Below are positions 20,059 to 29,140 of a DNA stretch of 64,000 nucleotides, one piece after another. The stretch covers positions 5,069,048-5,133,047 of the forward strand of contig SMSO01000031.1 of assembly GCA_004764695.1 (NCBI GenBank). Reading direction: 5' to 3'. The notes under the pieces are model-generated. The model saw only the letters and a list, made by a program, of their open reading frames with translations, had not been told where the DNA came from and searched no databases. This DNA is from Schizochytrium sp. TIO01 (lineage: Eukaryota > Sar > Bigyra > Thraustochytrida > Thraustochytriidae). The position numbers and the translations under genes are program-made. Numbering within the stretch: the stretch's first letter is position 1; the number at the start of each line of letters is the position of its first letter.

Positions 20059-23000
20059 TTCCACCACCCCCATAGTATAAACTGTAAATTATATGGTATG
20101 GTTAATCTTAATATGAGTCATTAAAAACCTATCTTTCGTACAAGGAAAGCTGTCAATTCTTGGGATTTGCATACATCTGTTTTTGGCCTTTTTAAATTCT
20201 TTTTTAAAATTCAAATTTTAAAATAGAATAAAAAAGAAGATTATAATTTTGTAATTCTGCCATGACTTTGAATCACAAGAGCTTCTGAGAATGGAAATAA
20301 CCACTAGAACCTGTGAATTTGAAAGGTCTCTATATAGGTTCACAAATATATGGAGTCTCAATTTGTGATTCGTGTTAGCCCTGCGCTGGCTACCATTCCA
20401 GTTCAAGATTGCGGCCAGATATCGATATCTGGCAGTTAAAAAATGTGTATATAATTGATGCAAATTTCGGAATCTTCACTCTGAGATACGACTTGAAGAT
20501 CAGCAGAACGTTTTCTCACATATCATATGCTTTCATTGGGCCTGTAAATCATGCTCGCCTATTTTTGCAGAGCTTCATCCCAGAGTTATAGCTACGATGA
20601 GGTCAACCGTCAAAAGGGTCATATTTCGAGCTACCAACTAATACCAATCATACTTGAAAACATGACCCGGACCACCTCAGTCAGCCAGACCATTCATTGC
20701 AGGTCCATCAGCTTCAACAACTAAAACGGACAGGTTGAAATGTCCATACCAAGCAACTTCAACTTAAAAGAGACTAATCCTTGGGAGACTGTCCCGCCTT
20801 GGAAAGTAGACGACGTGTAAATCCCCTACGACATCATTTATCACCCTCGGCCTACCGTAGTGTCTGTACCTGTGTCCTCCAAAGACGCGCCTTCTCCTCA
20901 TTTATTTCGGGAGAGGGAGAGGCTAAATTGTTAAATGCCAGGTTCGCGTTGTGTGTCGCTGACACTTCGCGTGAAGTCGCTAAATCTGCCAACTTTGTCA
21001 TTTTAAAACATTTTTATGGGACCCATTCTGAAGGTTATCTGTTCAAGTTCTCATGGTAAAGTTCCATAACCTTACTGTGCCGCTTGCATGTAGGTAGGTA
21101 GCTGCTACTACCTAGCCTGAAGTCATAGACAATGACCCAATGAGTGGTGAGGCTGCTAGGTAGTAAGTGTCTAGAATTGGCGCTGAGCTTTCTGATGCAA
21201 GTACCTTCGGTGAAACCTGCCATTACGCACAATCTGGAGGGCCCATATCATTGGAGATAACGTTGGATGATGGGTGATCGACAAGACACTGCCAGCCTTT
21301 CATTTGAGAGGCACCCCCGAGAATGGGCATTGGAGATTGTTGTTAGTATGTGAAGGGCTTGGATTTATTTTCGCCCACCGATTGATGTTAGGTCGTTGTT
21401 ACTGCTACCATTATTATGGTTCTCTGTATTTACGTGCAAACTCTTATGACTTCCCCTTCCTTAGCTTGTATGCCCAGAGGAAATGAGCATTCTATTTCTT
21501 GCGGCTTGTTTGTATACATTTCTACAAGTTGTACTAGATATATAACATTATAATTTTAGAATGACGATAGAAACGGTTGTTTGACCAGCTTCAAGCAGCC
21601 AAAGTCCCGTCTTTGTCGATGGCAATACACGCAGCTGCAAACAAGCGAGTGAGCGAGCGAACGAGTAGGTACCGCATAATTAAACTTCGAAAAAAATAAA
21701 TGCCTTTTCTAGCGCTACCTTGAGCTCTTCGCTCATTTTTGCACTTACTGACAGCAGCCCAGATCACCGTAATCTATTCCTCATGAAAATGAAGCAGGCT
21801 CATAGACTTCAAGTCAGTTGGCATTGGCATTGGCAACCACCCAAACTCTCTACCTTGTAGGAAATGTTTCTAGGTAGTAAGTAGTCATGCCAACTGTTGG
21901 CGATGATGAGCAAGCTGCATACAATATAGGGAACAACTGCCATCTGCAGAGAGTAGATATCGAGACCAGTGGCTGCACAGCCGGAGTGTCGGGTGCTGTA
22001 AATAGTAAAATCAGTTGAGGATCATGAAGCACAATCTTTGCACCTTAGGTGCTGGCTCGAGCAGACAATCGCTGCCTCGTGTGTAATACTTAGGTGTACC
22101 TTCAAGTCGGCATAATAATACTTATGCCAGTCCTTTGTTTCCTAACTTCCATTTAAAATAATGTCTTTTTATCGTATGAATACTTTTCTATGATTATAAA
22201 TAACTGCTGCCGCTCTCCTCGTCTATCCATCTTCGTCTCCTCTGCAGAGTCTCGCAACTGAGCACCATGGTCTTCATCGTAGTATTTATTCCACAATGTG
22301 GCAGGCATGGTATGAACGCAACCACTGCATCGCCAACACGGGCGTACAGGTAGTCCAGCTTTGCGAGTGAGGCAATATCTCAAGCGTGCGGCAACGCCTC
22401 GCACAGCAAGGCTTTGATTGAAGAGTTCAACTTGTAAAGAGGAAGGCTGTCAAAGAGCAGATGACAAAAAATACTAAAAAACAATCTCTGAAAAAAAAAG
22501 AAAAAAAAGAAAAAAAAGAAAGAAACGTTTTTGATTTGAGAAAAAAAGAGTAAATAAAACTGAAAACAAGAGAAGAAAAAGGGTTGACGGATCGCTCGTA
22601 ATCTGTCAGCCCTTAGAGAATTTAACTTCATGCCCTGGAGTCGAGCACCCGCCGATGGTTTTAGAGCATGTTTTGAGTATATAAGGGCCACTCTAGGCCC
22701 TCAGCCTGTTTTCTGGTGGCTGGACGTTTGGGGTGATCATTTTAATTTATAAGTTTTATTCATTAATTAAAATACTGTTATAGTAACACTGTGCAAATTG
22801 ACCGCACATTGGACTATTATAGGGTGGGAAAACACTGCTTTAAATTGAAAAACAAAAACCAAAAAGCACCGCCAAAAAACTAGTGCTACTAGGTTAGGTA
22901 CATCAAACTTAAGTGTGCCTAGCCAGGTACCAGTAAGTGAGGTTTCACCAACAAAATCGAGAATCGTGTGGTCGGAGCTTAAGCTACGCTCACCGTCATA

Positions 23001-24650
23001 ACGAGGGTTTCTTCCTTTTAAATAGACCCACCGGGCAATAACATGCTTTCTTTTTTTTTTTGCTATTCACTTGCTAAAGCCCAGTGAGTGATACCTACCT
23101 AGCTATCAGGCCGTATATGCGTGAATTTCTGGCTGCAAGGGTCTCGCGATTGGTCGCTATCTGAGTGGGTAATTAGCTATCTACTCCATGTGCTATTGCG
23201 GCGCTGCGATCGGTATTCACATCGAAGGGGATATTACTCAGTAACTAATTAACACCGGAAATACTTAATTTTGTCACATTCATAATCACTGGCGATGGAG
23301 CATTGTGCGATACTATGCTACCCCTTCGGGTCCCTAGTCGAGCTATATGGTTTCAGCTAGTTAGCTAGCTATAGCTAGATGGCGGCTGGCTGGCAGCCTC
23401 GCCTTCACACGGGAAGATTGAAGAATGAATCATGATGTGATACAATTCTTAGGATGAATCAGAGACTCGAGAGCCCGAGATAATCAATTGAGCAAGCATT
23501 CAATCAGTCGATTGGTAACAATCATGAGTATGCCAATCATAAATTCACTGCATCGTGTTGAAGTACCAAGCTAGCTAGCTACCTGTAGAGAGATCCAGAG
23601 ACTCCATGAGCTAGCTAGCTGCCCTTAGATTAGCGCTAGGGGCAGGTAGGTAGATGGTAGCGGGTGCTTATTTGTAGAACAAATTAATTAATTGAATGAA
23701 TGAATGAATGAACTGAGAGATAGCATCTGACTAGACTTATCGCTATGGCTGGGGACTGGCTGACTGAGTAGCGGTGTCGCTGAGCAATTTGCGGCGAGGA
23801 GAACCACCAGAGCGACGACGATAACGACGGCGGCGACGGCGACGACGATGTGGACGGCGTTGACGACGGTGGCGAGCCGACCACGAGCACCGAAAGCCTT
23901 GGGGCAAGCAAGCAAGCCTCCTTAGTTAGCAGATAGATACCTGAGGCAGGAGATGTAGCTGTAGTCTAGAACCACCCTCAAAGGAAATAAGCTGTGGCTG
24001 GGCATTGGCTATGCGTTCTTTAGGATGCCTAAAGGGTTAGTGTTCAAGAGAATATAGTTTCCTCTAGCATAGGTGCTATGAATAAGTCGCTTTGAACTTG
24101 AAATAAAAGTAAATTGTTTAGCCTTTATTGTTAAAAAAGAAAGAAAAAATATGTTTTTATTTGTATATATATTTTTTTTAATTAAAAAAACATATTTTAA
24201 AATATATAAATTAAATCCTAACCTATCCTATTCAATTCTATTCAATTCTATTCTATTTGTTTTCTCCTCGTCGCGCTTACTACCTTTTCCTCAGGCATTC
24301 CTTGTTTTTTAAAGAAACCACTGCTACTGGAGAATACCCTGGGGTGGAGGTAGCAAGTAGTGCGATGCTCTAGCTTGTAATTTTGGATATGATATACATA
24401 GATACCTAAATACAGGTACATGCGTGGTTGGTATGTAAGTTTTACAATGTAGGTAGTTCGTGAAAGCTTTTCAACTTCAAAAGAAGCAGCAAACAATTCG
24501 TCGCTCAAAAAGCCCCTTTCTACTTTTTTTCCTCCTCCACATCCATTCGCTTACGAGAAAGAGTTCCAAGGCCCCGATAGCCGAACAAAACCGGTGTCTC
24601 GCTTGCTTGCTGTAACATGCCAGTGGCAGGCCTGGAGGCGTATGCCTGTA

Positions 24651-24689
24651 TGCATGCATGTATGTATGTATGTATGTATGTATGTATGT
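24651..24689. repeat. (TATG)n microsatellite
   Basis: Two GCATG-type units run into seven tandem TATG units. Confidence 0.9.
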
Positions 24690-24935
24690 GCCTTCGTGGA
24701 CGAGGCTTCTCCAAAAAAACCGTCATTTGCGGCACGAGATATCAGCGGTGCGCCTCTTTCTTCTTGTCCCGACTGGAGCTGGAAATAGGTTAGAGAATGA
24801 ACTAAGTCGGTCCTCAATTGGTAAGAATTAATTCATTCTCTTATCGATGGTTCTTTGGGTTTTATCATTGAAAAAAGAAAAAGAAGATGGCTAGTTCCGG
24901 GCTTAGGCCGCGTCTAGCGATCAACAAAAAGATCC

Positions 24936-25012
24936 CATTCATTCATTCATTCATTCATTCATTCATTCATTCATTCATTCATTCATTCATTCATTCATTC
25001 ATTCATTCATTC
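24936..25012. repeat. (CATT)n microsatellite, about 19 units
   Basis: An uninterrupted 77-base CATT tract, the longest perfect microsatellite in the window. It creates a spurious repetitive Phe/Ile/His/Ser open frame. Confidence 0.95.
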
Positions 25013-25426
25013 GATAGCCCTTCAGCAGGCATTGAGGTTGATTCATTTGAAGACCTTGCTCGGGGGCTAGCTGCTCTTCCACCAATATCCAGCCATCGTC
25101 ATCCTCATTTATGGCAAGCCTGTTGAAGTTCCCGACGATTGCTTCTGCCAGAGCTGGCTGGGGTTGCTGGAGTGATTGATTTGCATGGTCTTCTGCAAAC
25201 TTGTAACTTTGAGCGAATGAATCGCGAGCGAATTGGAGAAAAAAAGAAAAGAAAAGAAGAAAAGAAAAGAAGAAAAGAAAAGAAATTCTTTTCCCGAATG
25301 AGTGAAGCGAGCGTGAGGACTCTGAGGAGGGTGGCAGGATATCGGCCCTAGCGGACTTGTGTATCCGCAGTAATACCGCTGAGTTCGGGGTCCCCTCTGT
25401 CTCTTATTGTAGGCACGCTCGAGTGC

Positions 25427-25443
25427 GGATGGATGGATGGATG
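25427..25443. repeat. (GGAT)n microsatellite
   Basis: Four tandem GGAT units, 20-odd bases before a (CACT)n tract. Confidence 0.85.
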
Positions 25444-25464
25444 CCGCGACCAGAGAAGGAGGGA

Positions 25465-25489
25465 ACTCACTCACTCACTCACTCACTCA
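25465..25489. repeat. (CACT)n microsatellite
   Basis: About six tandem CACT/ACTC units. Confidence 0.9.
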
Positions 25490-25587
25490 GCTAACTAAGT
25501 TTTAAGCCTCATCTCTCCCGCGTTCTATGATGCTGCTATGATCAGACAATCAGTTCTATGGAGGCCGGTCATTGTTAAATCAATTGG

Positions 25588-25629
<42 letters not shown>
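25588..25629. repeat. (GATT)n microsatellite
   Basis: About ten perfect GATT units. Imperfect GATT/GAAT tracts continue to about 25,800. Confidence 0.95.
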
Positions 25630-25675
25630 AAGGATCGATTGTTTGTCTGTCATTTATTTATAATTGGAGGTGATT

Positions 25676-25800
25676 GATTGATTGATTGAATGTGAATGAA
25701 TGAATGAATGAATATGATTGAATGAATGAGTGATCATGATGGAATGAGCGAATGAATATGGTTGAATACGATTGAATACGATTGAATGTGAATGAATGAT
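25676..25800. repeat. Imperfect GATT/GAAT tract
   Basis: Interspersed GATT and GAAT units. This looks like a decayed continuation of the neighbouring (GATT)n array. Confidence 0.75.
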
Positions 25801-26251
25801 TGAAGGATAGCCACCTTGCAGAGGGAACCAGAGGCAGAGAGCGTGAGAGAGAGAGCTAAGAAGCGAATACGTGAATGGCAATGAGTGGGTGGGAGGTGGG
25901 CTGTCTGTCTGTCTGCCATGCCACTGGCTTAGAACCATGAGGAGACAGGTTTTTAAGGTTATAAAAGAAAATGAAAGGTGCCAGAGGGACCGAATGAAAG
26001 AAATGGCGAAAGAGAGACAGAGAGGGAGAGAGGCAGAGAGGCAGAGAGGCAGAGAGGGAGGGAGATAACAGGAGAGAGAGGGAGGGAGGTATATTTTTTA
26101 ATCTTTAATTTTGTTTTATTTTAATAGTGGGAGGGAGAGAGAAGAAGGGCCGAGAGGGCGACAGAGGGAGAAGAGGGAGAAAAAGAAAACAAAAAGAAAA
26201 TAAAAAAGAAATAAAAAGAAAAGAAAAAAGAAAAGGAAGAAGAGGAGAATG

Positions 26252-27306
26252 AGTGATCGAGCGACAGAGCAGCAGTCGCTTTAGCAGGAGTGGAGTCGAG
26301 GAGCATCGAGCGTGGGGTCAGAGCTAGGTTGCGTTTGCAGGGCTGAGGATAGAGGAGCGAGGATCAAAGCGTAGCTGGCAGACTCGCTTGAAGGCGGGTC
26401 GTTAGCTGTGCTAGGTAGGCCAACTCGGTTTGCGCGAAGAGCAGGCACGAACTAGGCATCCATCACGTGCTTTCCCTTCAGGGCCCGGGCCCAACACCAC
26501 TTCTCGACCACGAGCTGACAAGTTAGAAGGCGCCCCGCGCGGCGGTGCGCGGCGCCGTAGGTTACGCACTGCTTGCGTAGACCATTTGTTTGCTGGATTA
26601 GCTACTAAAGTCGTGGCTGGTTGCGGTAAGCGGTTTGCGCAGCGGGTCTCAAGCGGTTCGTCAGGAGCGAGCGAGCGTTGACACAGCGTATACACTGGGA
26701 GCGGATTCCAGGGACTTGCTAGCATATCCCTGTACCTGGATTGAGCGTTTTCGTGAGTACTTTAAGTTACTTTGCTTGCCCTTTCCCTCGGTTGCCTACT
26801 TTATCCGTCTCGTTATTTTTAGTTTGCATATCTGCCTTTGCTTTTGCAAACCTTGTTTTCGAGTCTGTGTCCAGGTAACTACACGAATCCACTTGGGATT
26901 ATTTGTTGAATTGGCCGGACTCCTTGCCCATCACTTATTATCTGTCGTTTCGAGTGTAAGGTTCTCCCTTGCGTGGTTTTTAATAGCCTACCACCCCGTA
27001 AGAAAGCGAGCAACTTTTGCATTCCATCCGTACAACCTACTTTTGAGGGCAGCGAAGAAGAAATACATTTGAACGAAAAGGGTCCGCGTACCACCTTTTC
27101 AACAAGCCACCTTTTTTGAGAACCTTTTATAATACAACCGTCACCACAAACACAAAAACTACCTGTACGAGGCATACTTGCTTATACATTCAATATAAAA
27201 AAGACAAAAAGCATTAAGCCAACAAGAAAGCACACGTAATCCTTGTACGTTCGTGTTTGTGTGAGTGTGAGCGGAGCTAAATCAGCTCTTCTTGAACTAG
27301 TACTAC
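26252..27306 (+). promoter_or_regulatory. ATG-free leader/promoter region of the AdoMet decarboxylase gene
   Basis: Reading the plus strand, no ATG occurs between the one at 26249 and the start codon at 27307. The complementary triplet CAT occurs about a dozen times in the same interval, so the absence is strand-specific. A donor-like GTGAGT lies at about 26754, and possible acceptors include CCAG near 26874 and ACTAG just before 27301, so part may be a 5'-UTR intron. This fits a long transcribed leader that is scanned by ribosomes and kept free of upstream starts. The transcription start is unknown, and the first part may be promoter. Confidence 0.55.
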
Positions 27307-28479
27307 ATGCAGAAGAGTCTGAGCGGCTATTTGGTCTTGCCACGCGAATCCTCGCCGTCTGCTGAAGCCATGGAGGCCAAGACCGCAGGAGGAGTCTGCC
27401 CGACTATGGAGCAGATCCAGGAGAACACGCAGCAACCTGGAGACGCGGCTGCCGGGGGCCAACTCGTCGGAGGCTTTGAAGGCCCGGAGAAAATCCTGGA
27501 AATCGACTTCAACCCTGAAGTCGGAGAGTCCTTGCGCAAGCTCGATCGTGAGACTTGGGACGCGATTCTCGACCTGGCTAGGTGCCAGATCCTGAGTAAG
27601 GTGTCCAATGAGTTTCTCGACGCGTACGTGCTCTCTGAGAGTAGTCTATTTGTGTACAGTCACAAGGCCTTTATCAAGACCTGCGGAACGACTACGCTGC
27701 TGCGATGCCTTCCTCTTCTCCTCGAAGAGGCTGAGAAGCTCGGCATGGAGCTCCAGTGGATCGGCTACACGCGCAAGAACTTCATCTTCCCTGAAGATCA
27801 AGTGTTCCCTCATTCTTCCTTTGCTCAGGAAATTGAGTATACTAAAAAGTGCTTTGGCCCCAAGGGTGAGCCCCTCACTGGTGGAGCTTACATCCTCGGC
27901 GACCTTCTTGCCGACCATTGGTATGTCTACGTGTCCGACTACTGCGATGAAAACCAAAGTTCTGAGCGTAACGTAAACATCATGATGTACGACCTCGACC
28001 CCGATGTCTGCCAGGGCTTCTACCGCCAGCCCACTCTTGACCTCGAAGCCGATGCCAACCGTGCTGCTTATGAGGTCGCTAAGATTAACGAGCTTTGCGG
28101 ACCCAACGCAATTGTTGATGACCGTATGTTTGAGCCTTGCGGCTACTCCCTCAACGCGATTGAGGGCGAGAGCTTCTACACTCTTCATGTGACCCCCGAG
28201 CCCGAGTATAGCTATGCTTCCTTTGAGACCAACCTCGAGGTTCCCGACTATACTGATCTCATTGCTAAGACTCTTCGTGCTTTCCGCCCGAAGCGTTTTG
28301 CCATCACCATGTTTGCCGATGAAGCCGCGCTTGAGAAGATCCGCAGTTGCCCAACCCAGCTCACCTCTGTTGCTGCTGGATGCACCTACAAGCGCCAGAC
28401 TCAATCTACCACTTGCATCCGTGCCGACTACGCTTGCCGTATGTCCGTCTACACCATCGAAGGTGAAACCTCTTCTTGA
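27307..28479 (+). CDS. AMD1: S-adenosylmethionine decarboxylase proenzyme
   Basis: Predicted 390 residues. The enzyme decarboxylates S-adenosylmethionine to supply aminopropyl groups for spermidine and spermine. The eukaryotic active-site set is visible: FEGPEK (Glu58, Glu61), the self-cleavage site YVLSE|SS (Ser112 becomes the pyruvoyl group), KTCGTT (Cys126, proton donor), and PCGYS (Ser281) with His294 (YTLHVTPEPEYSY), both needed for processing. The family usually begins within about ten residues of FEG, but here about 56 residues precede it. An in-frame ATG at 27370 (context GCCATGG, the stronger Kozak site) would shorten the extension to about 35, so the start is uncertain. Codon use is strongly C/G-ending (CTC, GAC, TAC), unlike neighbouring genes, suggesting high expression. 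The upstream ATG-free leader suggests translational control. Confidence 0.95.
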   Translation: MQKSLSGYLVLPRESSPSAEAMEAKTAGGVCPTMEQIQENTQQPGDAAAGGQLVGGFEGPEKILEIDFNPEVGESLRKLDRETWDAILDLARCQILSKVSNEFLDAYVLSESSLFVYSHKAFIKTCGTTTLLRCLPLLLEEAEKLGMELQWIGYTRKNFIFPEDQVFPHSSFAQEIEYTKKCFGPKGEPLTGGAYILGDLLADHWYVYVSDYCDENQSSERNVNIMMYDLDPDVCQGFYRQPTLDLEADANRAAYEVAKINELCGPNAIVDDRMFEPCGYSLNAIEGESFYTLHVTPEPEYSYASFETNLEVPDYTDLIAKTLRAFRPKRFAITMFADEAALEKIRSCPTQLTSVAAGCTYKRQTQSTTCIRADYACRMSVYTIEGETSS

Positions 28480-29140
28480 CACGAGCACTCCAATACTTCG
28501 AGCATTCATATTTTAATAATTGCAGCATCGTCTTGTCGTTCTCTAATTCCCCCTTTCCCAATTGACAATCAATATATTCTTTCATATATATGTCGCGCCT
28601 CACACGTTTAGATTTCCTTGTCTTCCTCTTAGTGCATACATAATTTCCTGCACAAGCTTGTCCATGAAATTCTAATAGATAGGTTCCATTTTAGCTCTTT
28701 GGTCAAGCAGTACCCAGAGAGGGAAAATACTGATGATCAAATCGTCCTCCTTGCCAGATAGATAGCCATCAAACTTGCCGAAAGCAAGCAAAGTGCTGTT
28801 ACAGCACTACTTCGAGGTGGTTCATGCTCTTCTCTGTCACCCTCCAGGCTATTGAAAGAAGCAGCCAAACATATATATTCATGCATTACATCCTAGTCTG
28901 CATGATTGGTCACCCATTCCACTGACTTTTCTGATGCATGCAAGAAGTTCTGTCCTGTCCTTGCCTTCTCTCGTATGGGAGAGCAAGTGAAATGAAATAA
29001 AAACCTTACTCTAGGAGTACCCTATTTATGTCCTAGCCATCAGCTACGGATAAAGTAAAATAAAACAGAAAGTTGCTCTTTGTCACCAGTGAGAACATGA
29101 CCATTAGAAGCAAACCAGAAAGCAAAATCGGTGGACAACC
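28480..29140. other. Intergenic region
   Basis: AT-rich 660-base gap between two co-oriented genes. It must hold the 3' end of the decarboxylase transcript and the promoter of the next gene. I see no ORF or RNA gene in it. Confidence 0.6.

Follow-up and report, generated by a model that had tools for sequence, protein, structure and literature searches.

The gene for AdoMet decarboxylase (AdoMetDC) of Schizochytrium sp. TIO01 is preceded by 1055 nt without a single ATG on the coding strand. This run occupies positions 26252-27306 (+ strand) of the window, i.e. the whole stretch of 64,000 nt that was analysed, and ends directly at the first codon of the gene. CAT, which is ATG on the other strand, occurs 13 times within it, and when 224 kb of this genome were examined on both strands, no longer ATG-free run came to light, the next measuring 754, 673 and 673 nt. 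With a probability of roughly 60%, we consider it to represent a long leader at the 5' end of the AdoMetDC mRNA, probably of 0.7-1.05 kb, which would be traversed by scanning ribosomes. Selection against AUGs that create upstream ORFs (uORFs) would have cleared ATG from this leader, on the coding strand only, and the weak-context AUG at 27307 may be partly skipped in favour of the in-frame AUGs at 27370 or 27406. Transcription of the entire stretch, scanning, selection and leaky start choice are what we infer from the DNA sequence.

The AdoMetDC gene and the stretch ahead of it

The coding sequence (27307-28479, + strand) is a single open frame of 390 aa plus stop. Judged from curated profiles, whose cut-offs it exceeds, it is a eukaryotic-type AdoMetDC: the match to PF01536 (E 1.1e-96, 324.3 bits vs. 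a cut-off of 22.2) covers profile positions 3-336 of 343, and TIGR00535 is matched with 274.9 bits (cut-off 233.15). It is the only AdoMetDC match found in the genome (64 Mb, 37 contigs), whose tubulins, EF-1A-like and ubiquitin-conjugating enzymes and genes split by GT-AG introns mark it as that of a eukaryote. Among solved structures, 1msv, the human enzyme, matches best (E 3.8e-58). A Glu-Ser site is present where ayvlsesslfv aligns with ayvlsessmfv of the solved chain 1jl0; on the basis of this alignment, it is presumably the self-processing site that yields the pyruvoyl group. Viral and prokaryote contigs were each scanned once, with a reach limited to close relatives; no relative turned up, and none of the seven pattern matches in the prokaryote contigs was one. 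The conserved part begins at residue 57 according to solved relatives and at residue 56 according to Pfam. An in-frame stop codon (27298-27300) ends two codons ahead of 27307, so that no in-frame protein extension into the upstream stretch is feasible without splicing.

On the + strand the run is bounded by an ATG at 26249 on its 5' side and by the AdoMetDC first codon. Inside, AT is followed by A (12 times), C (14) or T (13) and never by G, while TG has C (14), G (16) or T (33) in front of it and never A; the near-cognate codons CTG, GTG, TTG and ACG are present 14, 16, 33 and 9 times. ATG/CAT shows the greatest strand skew of the 32 trinucleotide pairs (0 vs. 13; P 2.4e-4 without correction for this number of pairs), with the CATs spread over the far half (5) and the near half (8). 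Direct counting thus confirms the strand-specific absence of ATG, which the original prediction had reported together with about a dozen CATs. Its figure of roughly 15 expected ATGs is close to the 17.1 obtained from base composition, whereas dinucleotides give 8.8.

Neither 2000 first-order Markov sequences nor 2000 dinucleotide-preserving shuffles (mean 8.8 ATGs) included one free of ATG. With the local dinucleotide expectation summed from the start codon, the probability of finding no ATG is 0.003 for the nearest 600 nt, where 5.8 ATGs are expected, and 3e-4 for the whole run. The evidence cumulates from the start codon, and since the GC-rich far 450 nt are expected to hold only about 2.4 ATGs, the far end is its weaker part. 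In the 224 kb, 12 ATG-free runs on both strands reach 500 nt, and a hand extrapolation of the run-length tail yields about 0.08 chance runs of the length seen here; gene starts make up a small share of all ATGs. In nearby DNA without a 200-aa ORF, ATG occurs at an ordinary density, with 22.1 per kb over 20059-25999 and 19.1 per kb over 28480-29107. A chance outcome is unlikely. A genome search, which skips simple repeats, found no second match to the leader.

The second longest run, 754 nt with 18 CATs, lies on the minus strand (L011:9213, window-relative 103213) and ends at an ATG that opens 46 codons, possibly another long leader with a short first exon.

Runs ahead of other genes and the extent of the proposed leader

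The first yardstick was a set of 49 ORFs with a minimum length of 250 aa, each assumed to begin at its first in-frame ATG; for one of them, the stretch examined contained no ATG further upstream. AdoMetDC has the longest ATG-free run (1058 nt), followed by 471, 458, 458 and 283 nt. On average, the 48 other ORFs show 5.0 ATG vs. 10.8 CAT per kb in the 50 nt directly preceding the start and a milder difference at 200-400 nt. With a clear deficit confined to those 50 nt, long purged leaders are not typical of these 48 ORFs.

Many of the 49 starts are uncertain, and therefore 18 controls with N-termini placed by domains were used: seven tubulins (all 10 matches fetched, 7 used), four translation GTPases (4 of 32 GTP_EFTU matches) and seven ubiquitin-conjugating enzymes (12 of 26 UQ_con matches, covered by the 12 stretches L039, L041 and L043-L052). 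Excluded from the 18 were L031, L032 and L036, the last being the SAM synthetase locus, with an unplaced first exon, L035 (same locus as L033), L045 (unsure start, run of 88 nt), L050-L052 (domain without a nearby in-frame ATG) and L039, which holds two exons of one gene and was fetched for its intron only. Runs ahead of the controls span 38-447 nt (median 163.5), with 38-269 nt for the tubulins, 63-199 nt for the GTPases and 259-447 nt for six of the seven ubiquitin-conjugating enzymes, the seventh (L041) having 103 nt. Runs of 250-450 nt are thus not rare (8 of 18), and that of AdoMetDC exceeds the longest control run by a factor of more than two. These shorter runs suggest a common pattern of which AdoMetDC is the extreme.

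Two of the tubulin genes (L028 at C34:2594616 and L029 at C34:2618021 of genome G000) lie 23 kb apart. Together with a third on another contig (L027 at C32:320843), they have equal scores against the tubulin profile (218.3 bits) and identical first 30 residues, possibly reflecting recent copies or gene conversion.

How much of the run belongs to the purged part can be bounded from chance overshoot: if ATG occurs at 8.3 to 16.7 per kb, 95% of chance overshoots are shorter than 361 to 179 nt, so that the purged part probably measures at least 694 to 876 nt, i.e. at least the 3' ~700 nt of the run. The strongest competing account, to which we give a distinctly smaller share of belief, assumes an ordinary leader of 100-500 nt; the remainder would be promoter DNA in which composition and luck have left few ATGs, picked as the longest run. 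Here the GC content of 0.60 across 600-1000 nt upstream of the AdoMetDC start, the low expectation for the far 450 nt, the control runs of up to 447 nt and the extrapolated 0.08 chance runs per 224 kb all count in its favour. The far GC-rich part indeed adds little evidence and could be promoter, and with so few ATGs expected there the length of the leader could be closer to 600 nt. Against an ordinary leader, an overshoot of more than 361 nt has a probability below 5% even at the low local ATG rate, and CAT occurs throughout the run.

Two further signals were considered as marks of leader length. Upstream of AdoMetDC, the local GC content changes most steeply 12 nt from the far end of the run, and a step within 80 nt of the run end is found in 5 of 11 long runs, AdoMetDC included (permutation 0.053); over 21 genes, however, the Spearman correlation is -0.29, and the step, fitting for AdoMetDC, was rejected as a general mark. 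A TATAWA motif at -113 of AdoMetDC would suit a much shorter leader, but TATA-like sites are scattered among the controls and uninformative.

Start codons, introns and upstream reading frames

Returning to the proposed scanned leader, its end would offer a choice of three starts. The first ATG (27307-27309, context TACTACATGC) has T at -3, the second in-frame ATG (27370-27372, GAAGCCATGG) G at -3 and G at +4, and the third (27406-27408, CCGACTATGG) A at -3 and G at +4. Position -3 is A in 17 of the 18 control starts, C in one and T in none; in the looser set of 49 ORFs with its uncertain starts, T is found in three, AdoMetDC included. The ATG that follows these, at 27608, lies in another frame: all three ATGs within 26252-27607 are in frame, and the stretch without an out-of-frame ATG, taken to 27405, extends over 1154 nt. 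The weak context of 27307 means that this codon may be partly skipped. In combination with the two in-frame ATGs and a conserved match that begins at residue 57, it raises the possibility that 27307 is bypassed and that AdoMetDC may be translated from a later ATG or from several sites.

The original prediction had also offered a 5'-UTR intron, non-AUG starts or RNA structure as means of control; special control mechanisms at the leader are, on the present evidence, unsupported. An intron would excise part of the stretch and leave a shorter mature leader, the lack of ATG within it being incidental. By eye, a GT-AG stretch can be made out at 26753-26875 (+ strand), from GTGAGTAC at 26753 (GTGAGT) to TCCAG ending at 26875, where the GC content drops from about 0.60 to about 0.45. 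Six introns of this genome, read by eye and with approximate boundaries, carry CTAAC (5 of 6) or CTGAC (1 of 6) ahead of the acceptor. The leader holds no CTAAC and a single CTGAC at 26515, a weak test given the small intron sample. As 26753-26875 itself contains neither motif, it is not predicted to be an intron. A wider automatic search for intron motifs yielded no enrichment (13 matches vs. 18 in the scrambled control), which again makes the branch-site test a weak one. Overall, we regard an intron in the leader as unlikely.

Polyamine feedback could alternatively act through a uORF with a non-AUG start. The uCC uORF of ODC and antizyme-inhibitor mRNAs begins at a near-cognate codon, and such a start would escape a purge of ATG. 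This uORF is described as carrying a PPW motif (PMC11900008). Near-cognate codons are available in the AdoMetDC leader, among them a CTG at 26695 (A at -3, G at +4) that opens 125 codons and is unremarkable on its own. Neither PPW nor MAGDI is encoded in any of the three leader frames, though, and a stop-free frame of 156 codons (26602-27072) is equally unremarkable (about 7% by hand estimate), so that we attach very little probability to a feedback of this kind. AUG-started uORFs are impossible within 26252-27306; the ATG at 26249 opens 11 codons, lies more than 1 kb upstream of AdoMetDC and is possibly outside the transcript.

Folding likewise lent no weight to structure as a means of control. 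The whole leader folds at -344.1 vs. a mean of -332.4 for 25 shuffled sequences (s.d. 7.8), i.e. about 1.5 s.d. below, and 13 windows of 150 nt gave z values from -1.99 to 1.24. One strong GC-rich hairpin is predicted at 26529-26556 (+ strand; -23.2 kcal/mol for the 37-nt stretch folded).

That the stretch is part of another transcript, be it a non-coding RNA or a missed exon, is barely credible: nothing specific favours it, the run terminates at the AdoMetDC start, the stop at 27298-27300 rules out an unspliced N-terminal extension, and in an Rfam search no family reached threshold, the sole match (16.9 bits, gathering threshold 90; 27405-27448) being on the other strand and outside the run.

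Known control systems and other polyamine genes

The polyamine-sensing uORFs of animal and plant AdoMetDC mRNAs are AUG-started, and Ivanov and colleagues, cited in PMC11900008, reportedly surveyed polyamine uORFs across eukaryotes. Trypanosomes have a paralogous AdoMetDC activator, the prozyme, and transcribe polycistronically. Depletion of AUG in leaders is described as widespread in eukaryotes, with observed/expected ratios below 1 in every fungus, multicellular plant and animal examined and in 15 of 20 protists (PMC7889888). The AdoMetDC leader would resemble such leaders in lacking AUG ahead of the start codon on the mRNA strand; it differs in its length of about 1 kb, far beyond the 18 control runs. 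A long scanned leader, as originally proposed, remains the best-supported reading of the strand-specific absence of ATG, with transcription and scanning as its conditional parts; the original prediction as a whole is partly supported.

In mammals and plants, AdoMetDC mRNAs are described as having a polyamine-sensing uORF (MAGDIS and the plant SAMDC uORF, respectively; PMC11900008, PMC2075485, PMC6221367), whereas the same enzyme in Schizochytrium sp. TIO01 is preceded by a stretch in which such an AUG-started control is precluded. The contrast drawn in the original prediction thus holds, provided that the leader is transcribed. For Trypanosoma brucei, one source states that AdoMetDC is without uORF control (PMC6221367). 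The absence of a uORF would be common to both, but a prozyme paralogue exists there and a single AdoMetDC match here. Our literature search found nothing on an AdoMetDC uORF in stramenopiles, nor on spermidine and decarboxylase in thraustochytrids. If the leader is confirmed, a textbook case of a uORF-controlled gene would have a leader swept of AUGs, and polyamine feedback on AdoMetDC would be made differently, or would not act at this step, in this lineage. The case would also suggest that, where start codons are well placed, the length of a leader can be guessed from raw DNA by the loss of ATG on one strand.

ODC (L018) and spermidine synthase (SPDS, L021) have runs of 471 and 458 nt, the second and joint third longest of the 49 ORFs. 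Shuffles without ATG number 103 of 2000 for ODC and 18 of 2000 for SPDS, weak evidence taken singly. Other loci from the searches for these two families (L019, L022-L024) have runs of 163, 127, 115 and 114 nt. A long run as a feature of the polyamine pathway is not shown, given the 259-447 nt of six of the seven ubiquitin-conjugating enzymes, and was kept only as a lead. The search for antizyme (PF02100) gave no match, and as 14 controls were equally silent, this result is uninformative.

Directly upstream of the ATG-free run lies an A/G-rich tract (26163-26249, + strand) with purine-only runs at 26163-26189 and 26213-26249; speculatively, it is a promoter-proximal element. Purine runs of 22 nt or more on the sense strand occur within 1.2 kb upstream of AdoMetDC, ODC and SPDS (3 of 3) and of none of the 18 controls, a comparison that is post hoc, as the length threshold was chosen after the tracts had been seen. 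They are also present ahead of 2 of 37 other ORFs and of none of 5 related loci (0.94-1.24 kb upstream). Pyrimidine runs are found as well, one ahead of ODC and others within 1.2 kb of three controls. A far-reaching scheme, which we consider quite improbable, would combine these elements: the kilobase leader and its GC hairpin would meter scanning, a polyamine-sensitive choice among the three in-frame AUGs (of weak, better and best context) would set enzyme amount and N-terminus without any AUG uORF, and a control region made up of purine tract and long AUG-free leader would be shared with ODC and spermidine synthase.

The ODC family search also returned an ODC-like domain match of 57 bits (L020, G000:C8:230569-230973) inside an open frame given as 32,972 aa, i.e. 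about 99 kb free of stop codons, and matches to the UBC domain were likewise found inside frames of 7,037 and 4,686 aa.
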